In this document: piece after piece, positions 8,405 through 18,748 of the stretch
How the letters are laid out: each line of letters starts with the position of its first letter
Position numbering within the stretch: the first letter of the stretch is position 1
NCBI GenBank assembly: GCA_020853795.1
Contig: JADYYF010000077.1
Span: 1 to 32,423, forward strand
DNA length: 32,423 bases
Direction: 5' to 3'
Source of the DNA: Candidatus Zixiibacteriota bacterium
GTDB taxonomy: Bacteria; Zixibacteria; MSB-5A5; CAIYYT01
Program-made: the position numbers and the translations under genes
The notes under the pieces: generated by a model
Told to the model about the DNA's origin: nothing
Databases searched by the model: none
The model's input: only the letters and a program-made list of their open reading frames with translations

Positions 8405-8829
8405 ATGTCTCCCAGTGGTTTGGATTTGTTGCGCTTTCTAACCGACCGGCCGTCGGTGCCCACAATTCCGGTCGGAAATCTCCAGATCGGCGAGAGGATA
8501 ACCCAAGCCTCAATTGAAAGCAAGCCGAAAAGCAGTAGGCAGGGACTGACTAAGTCGACAATAGTCGGGTCGCACTCGGCGATCGGTGCGGCGCGCGGTC
8601 GTGAACGCTCTTGCGGGAATCACGATTTTGTCGATCCGTCTTAAGTGGTGCAAATCCGCGGGCAGCTGTGGTTTAGGCGGAGCGGGCAGCAACGGTGGCG
8701 GGGAAAAAGGCGTTGACTAATGAGTTTTATGCGCTATATAACTACTAACGAGCCCAAAATACTGCCGGCCTTGTGCCGAACTTGTCTGTTACGAGACCCG
8801 GACCTTTCCACGCATTATTGGAGGAGAGC
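8405..8829. other. Divergent promoter region between envelope operon and metallopeptidase gene
   Basis: No gene is supported: short frames here lack ribosome binding sites and family resemblance. The region must carry start signals for both the leftward operon (first codon at 8404) and the rightward protease (first codon at 8830). Only the rightward promoter is clear. Confidence 0.6.
8713..8742 (+). promoter_or_regulatory. Predicted promoter of the M4 metallopeptidase gene
   Basis: TTGACT at 8713-8718 is followed after 18 nt by TATAAC at 8737-8742; TATATA at 8735-8740, at 16 nt, is an alternative -10. The stretch is notably AT-rich against its surroundings. Transcription would start near 8749, giving a leader of about 80 nt. 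Confidence 0.6.
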
Positions 8830-11800
8830 ATGCTTCGTGGACGTTTGAATCGAGCTTTGGCCATTGGACTGGTCTTGATGTTGTCGGTATCTGTCCTGGG
8901 AGCGACGGATGACGCCAAGTATGGACCAAATCTTCTGCGCTTTGACCCCGCCTTAACGCTTTATCACCAAAATGATCAAGGAGTGCCCACGTTCGTCAAG
9001 GGCGCTCTGGCGCCGGCGGCTGGAAGCGATCTTGCCACGGCAGCGGAATTTCTCGCGCGCAACCAGGGCGCATTCCGCATCGCCAATCCCGCGGAAGAAT
9101 TGCGGGTGCGCAAGACGATCGTGGAGGAGAACGGCGCGCGACACCTGCGCCTCGACCAATATTACAACGGCCTGCGAGTGATCGGCGCTGATATGGTGGC
9201 CCATTTCGCGGCAGACGGTTCGCTGCGGGCGTTCAATGGCACGCCGGTGCCGGATTTGGAGCTTGATGTCAATCCAGCGATCACGGCGGCGGCGGCGAGT
9301 GAGCGGGCCGAAGCCGATCTGAAGAGTTTCTTCGGCGCGGGACAGCCCGGGGAGCCGGAATTGGTGATCTTCCCGTGGGAAGGCAGCATTCACCTGGCTT
9401 GGCGGCTGTTTCTGACTTCCGATACGCCGATGGGGCGCTGGGAATTCTTCGTTGATGCGAAGAGCGGCGAGGTTATCTACAAAGCCAACCGCATTATGAA
9501 TGTCGACGTGATCGGCACCGGTGTCGGCGTCATGGGGACGGCGCGCAATCATCTCGACATTGACTACACCGGCTCGACCTATCAGATGAAGAACAACACG
9601 CGGCAGTTGACCAACAATCCGCACGGCCATGACGGCCAGATGCCGGCGGGCAACTATCTGCAGACCAATATTGCGAGTTCGAGCTTGCCGGGAACGATTG
9701 CGACCGATGCCGATAATGTCTGGAATGCGGGCGGCTCCCAGGCGGCGGCGGTGGACGGGCATCTGTACTCGGCGCTGTTTTATGATTGGATTCTGGATCA
9801 GTTTAACCGCAACTCCTACACCGGCACCGGCACGTCGATGCTGACGGTTGTCAATTACAGCGGCGAGGGAACGGACAACGCGTACTGGGACGGCCAGCGG
9901 ATTGTCGTCTGGGCCAACAGCAGCGGCTGGCGTTCGCTGGCAGGTTGCCCGGACGTGATTTCGCACGAGTGGGGCCATGCGGTAACAGAGAATGAATCGA
10001 ACTTAATTTATCAAAAAGAATCGGGAGCGCTCAACGAATCGTTTTCCGACATGGTCGGTGCAGCGTTTGAATTTGCCTACGATTCGCTCGACACGCCGGA
10101 CTGGTTGATGGGCGAAAACGGCCAGACCAGCGGCGCCGGTTTCCGTGACATGTCGAATCCGCACGCCAACGGCGACCCTGACTATTACGGCACGACCGAC
10201 CCGTACTGGGTGGATGTTGTCGGTTGCTCGCCGAGTGTCTTCAACGACTACTGCGGCGTGCATACGAACTCGGGTGTGGGCAACAAGTGGTTCTTCCTGT
10301 TGTCGGACGGCGGCACGCATCACAGCATCACAGTGACCGGCATCGGGGTGGCGAATGCGATCAAGGTCGCCTACCGAGCCAACCAGTTGTACTGGACTTC
10401 CAGCATCGATTACTACAATGCGGCGCTTGCGACCGTGACGGCCGCCGATGAGCTGGACGGGAGCGGCAACTGGGCGACGCAGACCTCCAAGGCGTGGAAC
10501 GCGGTGGGCGTAGCCGTACCGTTGGCCGCGCTGGGATTCAGCTATCCGAACGGCGTGCCGACGGCGCTGGCGCCGAATCAGCCGACGACGTTCCAGGTGG
10601 TGGTGAGCGGGACGGTGGGCGGTACACCGGTGCCGAACTCCGGTGTGCTGTTCTATCGCGTCAACAGCGGCCTGTGGACGCAGATTGCCATGACGCAGAC
10701 TTCACTGAATCACTACGATGCCACGATTCCGGGCTCGAGCTGCTACGACCAGGTGGACTTCTACGTCGGCGCGGTCGAGCAGACCAACGGGCTGTTCACC
10801 GATCCGGGTGCGACGGCGCCGTTTTCGGCGCTGGTGTCGACCGGTTCGACAGTGGCATTCGCGGATAATTTCCAGACCAATCTGGGTTGGACGGTATCCA
10901 GCACCGCGACCGCAGGGCAGTGGGCGCGCGGCATACCGGCAGGCGGCGGTGATCGCGGTGATCCGCCGAGCGATTACGACGGTTCCGGGCAGTGTTATCT
11001 GACCGGCCCGGCGGACGGCGACACCGACGTTGACGGCGGCAGCACGGTGCTGACCTCGCCGACGATCGATCTGTCGGCGGGGGATGCGCGGATCAGCTAC
11101 GCGCGCTGGTACTCGAACAGTTTTGGTGCTGCGCCCAACGCCGATGTGATGACGATTTCCATTTCCAGCAATAACGGCACCAGCTGGACCGTAGTGGAGA
11201 CAGTCGGGCCGTCGCAGGATGCCAACGGCGGCTGGATTGAACACGGCTTCTTCGTGTCCGAGTTTGTGACGCCGACGGCACAGGTCAAGATGAAGTTTGA
11301 TGTGGGCGACCTCGGCGACGGCTCGGTGGTTGAAGCCGCGGTCGATGCGTTCAACGTAACGCAGTATGAGTGCGCTTCCACGGCGTTGGAAATCACGACC
11401 AATGACCTGCCGGACTGGACAGTCGGCGTTCCGTATTCGCAGCAGTTGACGGCGGTCAACGGCTCGGGCGCGCTGACCTGGATCGACGGCAACAACGGAC
11501 TGATCGGCACCGGATTGACAGTGTCGACCGCGGGCCTGGTGTCGGGCACGCCGACCACGGCGGGGCCGATTTCCTTCACGGCACAGGTGACCGACGAAGC
11601 TTCGGCGTTTGACAATCGCAACTTGAACTTCACCATCAATCCGGCGTTGAACATCACCACGACGACGCTGCCGGAGTGGACGGCGGGCCGTCCTTATTCG
11701 CAGACGTTGGCGGCGACCGGCGGCACCGGACCGAAGGGATGGTCGGACAAGAACGATGATCTGATCGGCACCGGGCTGGCATTGTCGGCGGCAGGCGTGT

Positions 11801-12378
11801 TGAGCGGGACCGGCACCGCGGCCGGTACACTCGGATTCACGGCTGAAGTACAGGATCAGATCGGCGCGGCCGCAGAGAAGGCACTACAGGTGGTGTTGAA
11901 TCCGGCGGTGAACATCACGACGGCGTCGTTGCCGGAAGGTGTTGAGGGCGAAGCATATTCGCAGGCGCTGACGCTGACGGGCGGAACCGGCACGAAGACC
12001 TGGAGCGATAAGAACAATAACCTGGCGGGCACGGGTCTGACGTTGTCGGCGGCCGGTCTCCTGAGCGGAACGCCGCTGGCGGCCGGGACCATCAATCTCA
12101 CAGCCAGAGTTGTGGATATCGCGGGGAGCACGGACGAGCAACCGCTGACGCTGACGGTGGCGGAGCCGTATGTTTGCGGTGACGCGGACGGTTCGCAAGC
12201 GGTGAATATTTCGGACGCGGTGTATCTGATCAATTACATCTTCTCCGGCGGGCCGGCACCGACGCCGCTGTTGTCGGGGGATGCAGATTGCAGTGCCGCT
12301 TTGAATATCTCCGACGCCGTCTACTTGATCAATTACATTTTCTCCGGCGGACCGGCGCCCTGCAGCAATTGTCCATAG
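8830..12378 (+). CDS. Secreted M4 (thermolysin-like) metallopeptidase with Ig-like repeats and C-terminal dockerin
   Basis: Zinc endopeptidase of 1182 residues. Signal peptide (about 1-26), an FTP/propeptide region, then the M4 catalytic domain: HEWGH at 379-383, third zinc ligand Glu403 in GALNESFSD (24 residues after His379, as in thermolysin), and catalytic His478 in VHTNSGVGNKW. A beta-rich linker follows. Three tandem putative-Ig repeats of about 88 residues lie at roughly 853-1113 (PYSQ, GTGL.., LSGTP pattern). From residue 1116 come two dockerin-type repeats, each with a D-x-D-x-S-x-x-x-N-x-x-D calcium loop and ISDAVYLINYIFSGG. The start at 8830 follows GGAGGAGAGC; an in-frame ATG 57 nt upstream lacks these signals. 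No type IX sorting domain is seen. Confidence 0.95.
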   Translation: MLRGRLNRALAIGLVLMLSVSVLGATDDAKYGPNLLRFDPALTLYHQNDQGVPTFVKGALAPAAGSDLATAAEFLARNQGAFRIANPAEELRVRKTIVEENGARHLRLDQYYNGLRVIGADMVAHFAADGSLRAFNGTPVPDLELDVNPAITAAAASERAEADLKSFFGAGQPGEPELVIFPWEGSIHLAWRLFLTSDTPMGRWEFFVDAKSGEVIYKANRIMNVDVIGTGVGVMGTARNHLDIDYTGSTYQMKNNTRQLTNNPHGHDGQMPAGNYLQTNIASSSLPGTIATDADNVWNAGGSQAAAVDGHLYSALFYDWILDQFNRNSYTGTGTSMLTVVNYSGEGTDNAYWDGQRIVVWANSSGWRSLAGCPDVISHEWGHAVTENESNLIYQKESGALNESFSDMVGAAFEFAYDSLDTPDWLMGENGQTSGAGFRDMSNPHANGDPDYYGTTDPYWVDVVGCSPSVFNDYCGVHTNSGVGNKWFFLLSDGGTHHSITVTGIGVANAIKVAYRANQLYWTSSIDYYNAALATVTAADELDGSGNWATQTSKAWNAVGVAVPLAALGFSYPNGVPTALAPNQPTTFQVVVSGTVGGTPVPNSGVLFYRVNSGLWTQIAMTQTSLNHYDATIPGSSCYDQVDFYVGAVEQTNGLFTDPGATAPFSALVSTGSTVAFADNFQTNLGWTVSSTATAGQWARGIPAGGGDRGDPPSDYDGSGQCYLTGPADGDTDVDGGSTVLTSPTIDLSAGDARISYARWYSNSFGAAPNADVMTISISSNNGTSWTVVETVGPSQDANGGWIEHGFFVSEFVTPTAQVKMKFDVGDLGDGSVVEAAVDAFNVTQYECASTALEITTNDLPDWTVGVPYSQQLTAVNGSGALTWIDGNNGLIGTGLTVSTAGLVSGTPTTAGPISFTAQVTDEASAFDNRNLNFTINPALNITTTTLPEWTAGRPYSQTLAATGGTGPKGWSDKNDDLIGTGLALSAAGVLSGTGTAAGTLGFTAEVQDQIGAAAEKALQVVLNPAVNITTASLPEGVEGEAYSQALTLTGGTGTKTWSDKNNNLAGTGLTLSAAGLLSGTPLAAGTINLTARVVDIAGSTDEQPLTLTVAEPYVCGDADGSQAVNISDAVYLINYIFSGGPAPTPLLSGDADCSAALNISDAVYLINYIFSGGPAPCSNCP

Positions 12379-15507: not shown

Positions 15508-15535
15508 TTGACAATCTTCTGCGATCCACTAAATT
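15508..15535 (+). promoter_or_regulatory. Predicted promoter of the tetR gene
   Basis: TTGACA at 15508-15513, 16 nt, then TAAATT at 15530-15535. The operator-like palindrome at 15546-15560 begins about 10 nt after the -10 box, so a bound repressor would cover the transcription start. Confidence 0.55.
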
Positions 15536-15545
15536 CTGTCAAGAA

Positions 15546-15560
15546 CTGACCGATGGTCAA
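15546..15560. promoter_or_regulatory. Predicted TetR operator, copy 1
   Basis: Palindrome CTGACC-GAT-GGTCAA, followed by TAAATGA. It starts 50 nt before the tetR ATG. The same arrangement recurs before the TonB receptor gene, which supports a shared site for the encoded repressor. Confidence 0.6.
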
Positions 15561-15595
15561 TAAATGACTGAATTTCGATTCCGAGGCATTTGCGG

Positions 15596-16255
15596 ATGAC
15601 GACGGCGGAAAGAAGAGAACGGGAGAAGCAGAAGCGGATCGAGCTGATTATGGACGCTGCGCTCGAGGTGTTCGCCGAGAAGGGACTGAAGAATGCCAAG
15701 ATGGAGGATGTTGCCGAGAAGGCGGAGTTAAGCAAGGGGACGATTTACTTGTACTTCAAGAGCAAGGAGCACCTGTTCTACGCGATCGACATGCGGGCCG
15801 GCCGGATGTTGCGCGAGCGATTTGCGGAGGCCTACAAAGCGGCTGCTACCGGCCGGGCGCGGGTGAGAGAGATCGGGCGGGCGTACTACAAGTTCTGTTT
15901 CGAGTATCCAAACTACTTCCGGGCGATGTCGTATGTCGAAGCGATGGATCCGCAGACGTTCGGGGCGATTGCCAGCGAGATGAGAGACAAGGGAGTTGAG
16001 GGATACAAGGATTCGTCACTGGCGATCCTGGCGGAGGCGATCGAGTCGGGGCATAAGGACGGGTCAATCGCGAAGGACGTGCACCCGTGGTTGACGGCGA
16101 TCTTGTTGTGGTCGACCAGCAACGGCGTGATTCAGATGATCAAGAATCGTGGGGAGTTTCTGAAGCTGTTTGATCTTGAGGTCGACCGGTTGTATCCAGC
16201 AAAGGAGCAAATGGTTGACCGCGGTTTGGCGCCGGTAAAGAAACCGAAGGGATAG
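15596..16255 (+). CDS. TetR/AcrR family transcriptional regulator
   Basis: A 219-residue one-component repressor. The N-terminal helix-turn-helix is typical: IMDAALEVFAEKGLKNAKME, VAEKAELSKGTIYLYFKSKE, LFYAI. The C-terminal ligand domain is all-helical and of usual length, without features that name a ligand. I start at ATG 15596 (MTTAERRERE), with CCGAGG nine bases upstream; a TTG at 15590 is in frame. A palindromic operator lies between its promoter and start, and a second copy precedes the TonB receptor gene 81 nt downstream, so it probably represses itself and the receptor. It is divergent from the PAS-LuxR gene. Confidence 0.95.
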   Translation: MTTAERREREKQKRIELIMDAALEVFAEKGLKNAKMEDVAEKAELSKGTIYLYFKSKEHLFYAIDMRAGRMLRERFAEAYKAAATGRARVREIGRAYYKFCFEYPNYFRAMSYVEAMDPQTFGAIASEMRDKGVEGYKDSSLAILAEAIESGHKDGSIAKDVHPWLTAILLWSTSNGVIQMIKNRGEFLKLFDLEVDRLYPAKEQMVDRGLAPVKKPKG

Positions 16256-16292
16256 GAAATGAGAAAGGTACGGCATTTTTTTTGCAACAAAG

Positions 16293-16307
16293 CTGACTAT
16301 CAGTCAG
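16293..16307. promoter_or_regulatory. Predicted TetR operator, copy 2
   Basis: Perfect palindrome CTGACT-ATC-AGTCAG, followed by TAAATGA exactly as in copy 1. It begins 44 nt before the receptor ATG at 16337. I see no good -10/-35 pair beside it, so it may act on an unseen promoter or as a roadblock to read-through from tetR. Confidence 0.6.
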
Positions 16308-16336
16308 TAAATGAACGACAGACAGTGGAGGCGAAT

Positions 16337-18658
16337 ATGCGAATGATCTTGATGTATGTAATGGCAATTCTCTTGAGCGCGCCGTCGTTGCGGGCGCAGG
16401 GAGAAGATGGCGGTGGCGGAGGAAGTGGTGCCGCTCAAAAGCTGGGATCGGTGCGAGGAGTTGTTATTGACGCGGAGACCGGCGCACCGCTGCCGGGGGC
16501 GTCAGTGCGCGTCCTGAGCACAGAGCGCGGCGTAGCCGCTGGTCAGTCAGGCGAATATCGGATTACGGGTCTGCCGATCGGCAACTATTCGCTGCAATAT
16601 ACGGTGATCGGATATGAGCCGCGGACGGTGACGGATGTGATCATTCGTGCGGGCCGGACGACGGTCGTCGATGCGCGGTTGCAGGTGCGCATGACCGAGG
16701 TGGCGGGGGTGACGGTTGATGCCGGGTACTTTGCGGATTCGCCGAGCGAGCCGACGAGCACGACGCAGTTTTCGGCGGAGGAGGTGCGGCGATCGCCGGG
16801 TTCGGCGGGCGACGTCAGCCGGATCGTGTTCAGCCTTCCGAGCATCGCCAAGGTCAACGACCAGGTCAACAACCTGATTGTGCGTGGCGGAAGTCCGACC
16901 GAGAATTCGTTTTACATCGACAACATCGAGATACCCAATATCAATCACTATCCTTTGTTCGGGACTTCGGGCGGGCCGATCAGCCTCGTGAATACGGATT
17001 TCATTCAGGATGTGAGTTTCTCGGCGGGCGGATTCTCGGCGGCGTACGGGGATCGGCTGTCGTCGGTGATGGCGCTGACGTTTCGGGAGGGGAACCGCGA
17101 GGAATTCGATACCCAGGCCGATCTGAATTTTGCCGGATTTGGCGTGGTCGGAGAAGGTCCGCTGGGCACGCGGCGCGGCTCGTGGTTGTTTTCGGCGCGG
17201 CGCAGCTACCTGGACTTGCTGGTGGATGCGATCGGGACCGGCGTCGTACCGCGTTATTCCGACTATCAGGGGAAGCTGGTCTATGATCTGTCGAGCAAAC
17301 ATCGGCTGTCGCTGCTGGGAATCCTGGGCATCGACTACATCAATTTTGAGCGCGCGAATGCGATCGAGGACGGGAATGTCACCGACGGCTGGTCGGACGG
17401 TCACGAGTATGCCGTGGGGGCGACCTGGCGTTACCTGTGGGGCAGGCGCGGGTATTCGACGACGTCGCTGTCGTACCTGGCGACGAAGACCGCGGCCAAC
17501 TACTTCGAAACGAGCACCGGCAAGGAGCTGGTGCGTCAGAACAACCGTGACGGCGCGGCGCAACTGCGCAATGTCAACCTGTTCCGCATCAACGAGCACC
17601 ATGAACTGGAATTTGGCGTCGAGGCGAAGTACGAGCTGGATCGCTATGACTACTATGCGGCCGACTATACTGATTTCTTCGGGGACTCGATTCCACCGCT
17701 GGTGATCGGTGATCGGATCGAGTCGCCGCGAGTCGGGGGATTCGCAAGCTACGTGGTGCGGCCAGCCGATCGATTGACGGCGACGTTGGGCGCGCGTTAC
17801 GACTATTTTGAATACACGAAGAACGCGAGTCTGGCGCCGCGGGCAGCGCTGGCGTACCGCTTCAGCGAGCGCACCAGTGCCAATCTGGCGGCGGGGATGT
17901 ACAGCCAGACCATGCCGATCGTGCTGTTGTCGCAACAGGAGCGCAACCGACGGCTGAGGGATCCGCGGGCGTATCATGCCATCGTCGGGTTGGATCACAT
18001 GCTGAGCGCCGACACGCGCTGGCGGCTGGAGGGATACTACAAGTGGTATGAGCGGTTTCCGATGAGCACCGACCAGCCGGAGTTGTTCATCATCGACGAG
18101 ATGATTTACAGTAACTACTTCTTCTATCATCCGAATCTGCGCGACGACGGCAAGGCGCGGTCGTACGGCGTGGAGATGACGCTGCAGAAGAAGTTGCGGC
18201 AGGGGCTGTACGGGCTGGTGAGCGGCGCGTGGTTCCGCTCGCAGTATCGCGACGTGAACGGGGTCTGGCGCAACCGAACCTTCGACAATCGCGTGGTCTT
18301 CAGTGCCGAAGGGGGCTACAAGCCGAACGCCAAGTGGGAGTATTCACTGCGCTGGGTGTATGCGGGGGGCGCGCCGTACACACCGCTGGACTTGGAGGCG
18401 TCGCAGTTGATCAATCGGTCGGTCTACGACCAGGGGCAGGTGAATGAGGCACGCTATCCCAATTATCATTCGCTCAATCTGCGGGTCGACCGGCGGTTCA
18501 ATTTCCAGCGCTCGAATCTGATCGTCTACCTGTCAATCTGGAATGCCTATAACCGCAAGAACGTGGCCAACTATTATTGGAATGAGCACGAGAAGAAGCA
18601 GGATGAAATCCTGCAATGGAGCATGTTGCCGGTGTTCGGATTGGAGTTTGAGTTTTGA
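16337..18658 (+). CDS. TonB-dependent receptor with N-terminal carboxypeptidase-regulatory-like domain
   Basis: Outer-membrane barrel of 773 residues for TonB-driven uptake. Signal peptide (to about residue 21, ending LRAQ), a Gly-rich linker, then the regulatory-like domain (VRGVVIDAETGAPLPGASVR). The plug follows (SAGDVSRIVFSLPSI, NLIVRGGSPTENSFYIDNIE, GGFSAAYGDRLSSVM), then a strand-rich barrel ending in FGLEFEF, the aromatic terminus read by BAM. The open frame begins at 16259, but ATG 16337 has GGAGG five bases upstream and starts a proper signal peptide; the earlier start would place the operator inside the coding region. The TetR gene upstream probably controls it. The substrate is not evident; no SusD-like partner is present. 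Confidence 0.92.
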   Translation: MRMILMYVMAILLSAPSLRAQGEDGGGGGSGAAQKLGSVRGVVIDAETGAPLPGASVRVLSTERGVAAGQSGEYRITGLPIGNYSLQYTVIGYEPRTVTDVIIRAGRTTVVDARLQVRMTEVAGVTVDAGYFADSPSEPTSTTQFSAEEVRRSPGSAGDVSRIVFSLPSIAKVNDQVNNLIVRGGSPTENSFYIDNIEIPNINHYPLFGTSGGPISLVNTDFIQDVSFSAGGFSAAYGDRLSSVMALTFREGNREEFDTQADLNFAGFGVVGEGPLGTRRGSWLFSARRSYLDLLVDAIGTGVVPRYSDYQGKLVYDLSSKHRLSLLGILGIDYINFERANAIEDGNVTDGWSDGHEYAVGATWRYLWGRRGYSTTSLSYLATKTAANYFETSTGKELVRQNNRDGAAQLRNVNLFRINEHHELEFGVEAKYELDRYDYYAADYTDFFGDSIPPLVIGDRIESPRVGGFASYVVRPADRLTATLGARYDYFEYTKNASLAPRAALAYRFSERTSANLAAGMYSQTMPIVLLSQQERNRRLRDPRAYHAIVGLDHMLSADTRWRLEGYYKWYERFPMSTDQPELFIIDEMIYSNYFFYHPNLRDDGKARSYGVEMTLQKKLRQGLYGLVSGAWFRSQYRDVNGVWRNRTFDNRVVFSAEGGYKPNAKWEYSLRWVYAGGAPYTPLDLEASQLINRSVYDQGQVNEARYPNYHSLNLRVDRRFNFQRSNLIVYLSIWNAYNRKNVANYYWNEHEKKQDEILQWSMLPVFGLEFEF

Positions 18659-18670
18659 GCGCGGAGTCAA

Positions 18671-18748
18671 TGGGGTGGGTGAAGGGATTTGAACCCTCGG
18701 CCCTCAGAGCCACAATCTGATGCTCTAACCAGCTGAGCTACACCCACC
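18671..18748 (-). tRNA. tRNA-His (GTG anticodon)
   Basis: Complete cloverleaf on the minus strand. The acceptor GTGGGTG pairs with CACCCAC. The anticodon stem TCAGA/TCTGA closes a loop with GTG, and the T arm is GAGGG-TTCAAAT-CCCTT. The extra G at position -1 (18748) opposite discriminator C73 is the identity signature of tRNA-His, and CCA is encoded (18671-18673). A promoter lies 15 nt upstream. Confidence 0.97.

Follow-up and report, generated by a model that had tools for sequence, protein, structure and literature searches.

Contig 77 of a Zixibacteria genome (G000; 3.56 Mb in 215 contigs, 99.93% complete) carries a tetR gene followed by the gene of a TonB-dependent receptor, and each of the two genes is preceded by a palindrome of similar sequence. 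This raises the question whether the TetR protein binds both palindromes, and what kind of circuit would join such a regulator to a receptor of this type. We analyzed the complete stretch of 32,423 bases that forms this contig (hereafter the window), the whole genome, and related loci in other bacteria. A first-pass annotation of the window had read the palindrome as a likely TetR binding site and the two genes as an autoregulated uptake module in which the regulator is tied to the ligand of the receptor.

The gene pair and its palindromes

Judged by domain and fold together, the product of the first gene is a member of the TetR/AcrR family that is predicted to bind its operators as a dimer. 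It contains a TetR_N domain (Pfam, E 9.7e-18; PF00440, 64.1 bits against a cut-off of 24), its AlphaFold2 model (pLDDT 94.6) shows 10 helices in an all-helical TetR fold, and TetR chains top the lists of PDB fold matches (VIA Z up to 16.8). The second product has CarboxypepD_reg, Plug and TonB_dep_Rec_b-barrel domains (Pfam) and scores as a TonB-dependent receptor (PF07715, 29.9 bits, cut-off 23.9; PF00593, 53.2 bits, cut-off 27). An assignment to the SusC/RagA receptors was rejected (TIGR04056, 23.5 bits over residues 39-99 only, subfamily cut-off 368.25). Sequence comparison of the receptor with the PDB returned matches to the carboxypeptidase domain only and therefore gives no hint of the cargo. 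The sequence GGAGG (16327-16331) lies ahead of the receptor ATG, and a tRNA-His gene (18671-18747) stands on the opposite, minus strand, 12 nt past the receptor stop codon. Elsewhere in the window (8773-12378), the translation of an ORF of 1201 aa resembles a secreted protease with a pair of near-identical dockerin-like repeats at its end.

Direct reading confirmed that the palindromes are alike, that each is directly followed by TAAATGA, and that their first bases lie 50 nt (site 1, CTGACCGATGGTCAA, 15546-15560) and 44 nt (site 2, CTGACTATCAGTCAG, 16293-16307) before the start codons of tetR (15596) and the receptor gene (16337), as first described. The description of both as 15-bp palindromes holds for site 2, the arms of which pair over the full 15 bp with six pairs around ATC. 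The arms of site 1 pair over 13 bp only (TGACC-GAT-GGTCA), since the outer C and A do not pair. The recurring core is TGACY-N3-RGTCA, 13 bp in length. The TAAATGA flank contains a further half-site at a 9-bp register, which is TGAC at site 1 and an imperfect TGAA at site 2. In site 1, a GTCA is also present 9 bp upstream (15538-15541). The predicted operators O1 and O2 include these outer half-sites (Table 1).

The predicted tetR promoter matches the consensus at 10 of 12 positions, and a scan of this region returned two promoter-like matches compared to 0.6 expected. Site 1 sits just 3' of the predicted -10 box and overlaps the point at which transcription is expected to begin. By eye, tetR of genome G023 is preceded by an identical TTGACA-N16-TAAATT layout. 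No sigma-70-like promoter was found in a scan ahead of the receptor gene; by eye, a T-run followed by TTG stands 5' of the receptor site in the window and in genomes G103 and G035.

Table 1. Genes, predicted promoter and predicted operators of the tetR-receptor locus (window coordinates).
Feature	Position	Strand	Description
Predicted tetR promoter	15508..15535	+	TTGACA (15508-15513), 16-nt spacer, TAAATT (15530-15535)
Operator O1 (predicted)	15538..15568	.	Four half-sites at 9-bp register, GTCA-AGAAC-TGAC-CGATG-GTCA-ATAAA-TGAC; core 15547-15559; conserved before other tetR genes
tetR	15596..16255	+	TetR/AcrR-family repressor, 219 aa; recognition helix region ELSKGTIYLYF
Operator O2 (predicted)	16293..16315	.	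CTGACTATCAGTCAG plus third half-site TGAA (16312-16315); conserved before the receptor gene in G103 and G035
TonB-dependent receptor gene	16337..18658	+	773 aa; N-terminal carboxypeptidase-regulatory-like domain

Occurrence of the site in the genome

Within the window, CTGAC-N5-GTCAR occurs without mismatch at sites 1 and 2 only. Allowing two mismatches raised the number of matches to 55, close to the 47 expected, so that only exact matches are informative. Across the genome of 3.56 Mb, TGACYNNNRGTCA was found at 11 places, namely sites 1 and 2 and nine others, of which eight are inside ORFs and one is between ORFs on a simple ORF map. The ORF that encloses the place on contig C105 is only 94 aa long and may be spurious. 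The intergenic place (G000:C122:38993-39005, L110:4994) lies 65 nt ahead of an ORF of 1054 aa and could represent either chance or a third target. The pattern with three half-sites, TGAC-N5-GTCA-N5-TGAC, occurs without mismatch on both strands of the genome at site 1 only, and 17 further matches with one mismatch include site 2. A near-match on contig C101 was rejected as a regulon member because it lies inside an ORF of 1571 aa.

The genome-wide search with TGACYNNNRGTCA thus found no wider regulon. Since the other places are mostly coding and the exact three-half-site pattern is confined to site 1, the predicted regulon seems limited to tetR and the receptor gene, in keeping with the autoregulated set of two genes that had been proposed.

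Conservation of the site with a TetR clade

Relatives of the window TetR (E up to 1e-25) were found at 19 loci in 17 of the 132 genomes of the class, the window's own included. Besides the window, 13 of these loci encode a recognition helix of the SKG type. In 12 of these, the 300 nt preceding tetR contain an exact TGAC-N5-GTCA (G023, G035a, G033, G029, G003, G051, G031, G026, G012, G103a, G108 and G113); the thirteenth, in G098, has a site with one mismatch. The site was absent before tetR in all five class relatives with the helix GK[AS]TIYNY (L044, L046 and L103-L105). Downstream of tetR, three of these loci (L044, L046 and L105) share a run of three ORFs that are similar in size (about 300-335, 402-410 and 280-296 aa). 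As a control, we inspected 200 nt before other TetR genes of the class genomes and found the site in 0 of 19.

Beyond the class, we used a named set consisting of the best 80 matches of a profile search (more than 80 relatives exist); a contig search with the single window TetR protein as query found no relative. The patterns of the profile search included [LV]SKGT[LI]Y[LI]Y, which biases the helix composition of the named set; the class search was made without such patterns. By title, the set comprises Calditrichota, Bacteroidota, Ignavibacteriota, Balneolota, Latescibacterota, Eiseniibacteriota, Cloacimonadota, Acidobacteriota, Myxococcota, Chloroflexota and others. Four loci with less than 100 nt upstream were dropped. 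The first-pass annotation had offered conservation upstream of orthologous genes as the test by which its proposal might fall, and the proposal withstood it: among these best 80 matches, 62 of the 76 usable loci have TGAC-N5-GTCA within 150 nt before tetR. In the same 76 loci this pattern ranks first among all 4-mer dyads with spacers of 0-12, and in 60 shuffles a mean of 0.1 and a maximum of one locus had a site. Upstream regions (150 nt) of other genes in the loci of these best 80 matches contained the site in 4 of 382 cases; two of the four are in L203 and flank one intergenic region before a TolC gene adjoining tetR, so that they may be one site counted twice. The median distance from the start of the site to tetR is 39 nt, and an inner Y/R pair is present in 62 of 67 sites, some of which overlap (both in the loci from the best 80 matches). 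At L201 the site lies at -203, beyond the 200-nt limit.

The presence of the site follows the type of recognition helix. For the helix SKG[TSA][LIV]YLY, 57 of 63 loci among the best 80 named matches have the site, six loci with this standard helix lacking it, compared to 5 of 13 for all other helices; the five exceptions have an AKGT helix (four) or SKGSLYQY (one). When the loci of the same best 80 matches are regrouped, a grouping made post hoc after the data had been seen, the site accompanies 62 of 68 [SA]KG helices, 0 of 7 other readable helices and 0 of 1 unreadable helix.

The outer half-sites recur as well. Around 72 sites before tetR genes, from 99 examined loci that include the best 80 named matches, 42 of 144 flanks have an outer half-site (at least 3 of 4 letters) at the 9-bp register, compared to 1-11 of 144 at 15 other offsets (14 to 29). 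In the same 72 sites, with both strands averaged, A accounts for 81% at position -12 relative to the centre. A second site downstream of tetR was found at 18 of these 99 loci, which indicates that the layout with two operators is not peculiar to the receptor.

Two trivial explanations can be weighed against these counts. The sites might be RNA hairpins or terminators rather than protein-binding sites, and a terminator-like match does exist on the minus strand at 16293-16307 (one found compared to 0.8 expected in shuffles). However, the TGAC and GTCA letters recur before tetR in many phyla, it is chiefly the middle of the site that varies, and the presence of the site tracks the TetR helix. We rejected this explanation on the grounds of letter conservation and helix correlation and consider it very improbable. 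The likeness could also be due to chance, as the nine other TGACYNNNRGTCA places in the genome, eight of them in ORFs, might suggest; this is contradicted by the ortholog and control counts given above and, for the receptor, below, and its probability is negligible. By contrast, the conservation with tetR orthologs and with the type of helix, together with the absence before the 19 other TetR genes, supports the palindrome as the predicted TetR operator.

Conservation of the site with the receptor gene

The pair of the window recurs in G103 (L124), where the TetR and receptor proteins are 71% and 72% identical to those of the window (the receptor over 739 aa) and a site precedes each gene. G035 has the same pair with a site ahead of both genes, and G023 has the pair with an exact site before tetR and none before the receptor gene. 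In G098, the TetR gene is paired with a different, distant receptor (27% identity, in two ORFs), which also has a site ahead of it. Three of the four receptor orthologs with an adjacent clade tetR are preceded by a site. In the 1.5 kb upstream of the receptor genes that lack such a neighbour, no site was found for any of 15 orthologs (41-57% identity), five more distant receptors (34-36%) or a receptor fragment in the same-genus genome G001. Four receptor loci with almost no upstream sequence (L216, L217, L218 and L227) were dropped, and L229 and L231, checked for the exact site only, have none. The receptor gene is thus a predicted TetR target, because the site precedes the examined receptor orthologs only where a clade tetR adjoins.

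In the receptor tree, the ortholog of G115, which no tetR adjoins, joins those of G000 and G103 at 100/100 on a long branch, and G023 joins G020/G048 at 88/93; the placement of G035 is not settled. From these placements, at least one loss or gain of the tetR-receptor pairing can be deduced, and more than one is probable.

In G057 (L214/L240) and G013 (L215/L241), a different TetR-type gene with an SSTAPVY helix lies directly upstream of the receptor gene in an apparent operon (TetR_N confirmed by Pfam for G057 only). By eye, TGTT..TAAC-like inverted repeats are present in both upstream regions. As another TetR type thus precedes the receptor, this receptor family seems to have acquired TetR-type control on more than one occasion.

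Pumps and receptors as neighbours of the clade

Profiles built from clade members were used to search for neighbouring genes at 96 loci, which include the best 80 named matches. TolC, MFP or RND genes lie near tetR at 63 of the 96, in many cases in the order tetR-TolC-MFP-RND; five have the receptor without pump genes, three an MMPL-type exporter, and 25 other neighbours or contig ends. Sister TetRs that have kept the operator differ in their target: a receptor in G023 and TolC in G029 (96/92), and a receptor in G098 and TolC in G003 (97/85).

These data bear on the effector of the repressor. The uptake module as first put forward, with the regulator tied to the receptor's ligand, is not supported as stated, given the efflux genes at these 63 loci and the change of target between sister TetRs. 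In its general form this reading holds that the effector is the receptor's own cargo and the pair a substrate-induced uptake module. It would account for the close neighbourhood of tetR and receptor gene, each with a predicted operator, in the window, G103 and G035, and the other TetR type beside the receptor in G057 and G013 suggests that inducible control arose more than once. Against it stand the predominance of TolC, MFP or RND genes over receptors among the clade's neighbours, the sister TetRs of G023/G029 and G098/G003, and the 15 receptor orthologs and the G001 fragment that have no clade tetR in the 1.5 kb examined. We regard uptake as possible, if somewhat improbable.

Alternatively, the receptor may have replaced or joined an RND pump under a pump-type repressor that senses hydrophobic or toxic compounds, and would then serve efflux or an envelope response and not feeding. 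The clade is mostly linked to RND-type genes. In G115 (L233), MFP, RND and receptor genes are consecutive, and 236 bp separate the receptor ortholog from the AcrB-type pump gene before it. L135 (Cloacimonadota) has tetR, MFP and a receptor of 31% identity, which runs off the contig, in a row. In G128 and G127 (L242 and L243), genes for an ABC ATPase and a MacB/FtsX-type permease lie directly upstream of the receptor ortholog (Pfam for G128 only). However, import is the normal role of a TonB receptor, we found no pump gene beside tetR and the receptor in the window, G103, G035 or G023, and most of the 18 receptor neighbourhoods that we read have no pump gene adjoining the receptor. This alternative appears rather unlikely.

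Proposed mechanism

Whatever the compound that is sensed, both palindromes are very probably operators of the adjacent TetR, which we infer to form an autorepressed two-promoter circuit with the receptor. A TetR dimer would bind TGACY-N3-RGTCA through the SKGTIYLYF helix. On O1, just 3' of the -10 box, the repressor would lie across the expected transcription start and, because of this position, limit its own synthesis; on O2, 44 nt upstream of the start codon, it would repress the receptor gene. A small molecule would free the repressor from both operators, so that receptor and repressor rise together, and the accumulated repressor would then restore the off state. The extra half-sites at the 9-bp register would probably strengthen binding. 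We rejected a second dimer with its centre 9 bp away, because the orientation of the outer half-sites does not fit it.

The best profile match of the window TetR is PvrA of Pseudomonas. The model is near many TetR structures, none of which stands out; Rv0078, KstR2 and FadR with stearoyl-CoA share the top rank to within Z 1. A hydrophobic or acyl-CoA effector is plausible. Because 63 of the 96 clade loci (best 80 named matches included) are near TolC, MFP or RND genes, the effector may be an acyl-CoA or some hydrophobic or toxic compound that has nothing to do with the cargo of the receptor.

A broader but doubtful proposal is that TGACY-N3-RGTCA with phased half-sites 9 bp away forms a portable operator code, kept with the helix across phyla while the target is swapped (mostly RND pumps, in a few cases an MMPL-type exporter, and a TonB-dependent receptor in Zixibacteria), and that the receptor takes part in a compound-induced envelope response with efflux machinery rather than in nutrient uptake. 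The locus offers a testable predicted operator for a large TetR clade that reaches many uncultured phyla, so that targets could be predicted from sequence data. For a TonB receptor family of unassigned cargo it supplies an assignable regulator, which opens the way to an inducer screen, and it presents a case in which the operator is retained while the regulated gene shifts from pump to receptor.

Comparison with known systems

The general kind of circuit is well known. New, as far as we searched, are the conserved 13-bp site with phased outer half-sites, the way its presence follows the type of helix, and the switch of target from a pump to a receptor. A literature search for the written-out motif in several forms found nothing, and searches on TetR control of TonB receptors, TGAC/GTCA TetR sites, Zixibacteria, dimer-of-dimers operators and BmeR found no such circuit in the accessible parts of the sources listed; subscription journals were largely outside the scope of both. 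Two candidate parallels were rejected from the accessible parts of the respective papers: PheR belongs to the IclR and not the TetR family (PMC13273656), and PA3973 binds other motifs (PMC9736018).

No NCBIfam TetR model matched by the window TetR reaches its own cut-off. FadR of Bacillus subtilis and B. halodurans, an acyl-CoA-responsive TetR repressor, is among the nearest folds (3whc, VIA Z 16.5, rmsd 2.7, 179 aligned, tied with many others) and sequence matches. Membership of the FadR group was rejected (NF053878, 51.5 bits, equivalog cut-off 200), and the operator and fatty-acid targets of FadR differ from those predicted for the window TetR. MtrR and AcrR were likewise rejected (52.2 and 37.2 bits, cut-offs 280 and 271). 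Repressors of RND operons of the AcrR/MtrR type, to which Bacteroides BmeR, the repressor of an RND pump operon, belongs, share the order tetR-TolC-MFP-RND with many clade loci, whereas in the window the TonB receptor stands in the place of the pump genes.

According to the accessible part of the report, TipR of Caulobacter is a TetR repressor of acrAB-nodT and of itself that is released by small molecules (PMC10754441). It resembles what is predicted for the window TetR in that it represses itself and envelope transport genes next to it, but it controls an RND pump and not a TonB receptor, and its consensus WTGaGWMtGAWC is unlike TGAC-N5-GTCA (PMC10754441).

The closest published site that we found in the accessible sources is that of SbtR of Thermus thermophilus (TTHA0167, PDB 3VUQ), a TetR-family protein that matches the window TetR at E 2.7e-13. 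Its selected site, TGACYRNNYRGTCA, has TGACY/RGTCA half-sites in 14 bp, TGAC-N6-GTCA, and a second, slower complex was seen that the authors believe to contain two dimers; the targets given in the accessible text are other Thermus genes (PMC4948773). The half-sites are thus common to both systems, whereas the site of the window, with 13 bp and N5, is 1 bp shorter. As the half-sites agree and the middle has 5 rather than 6 bp, the window TetR is likened to SbtR in the way it would work and is not filed as SbtR.
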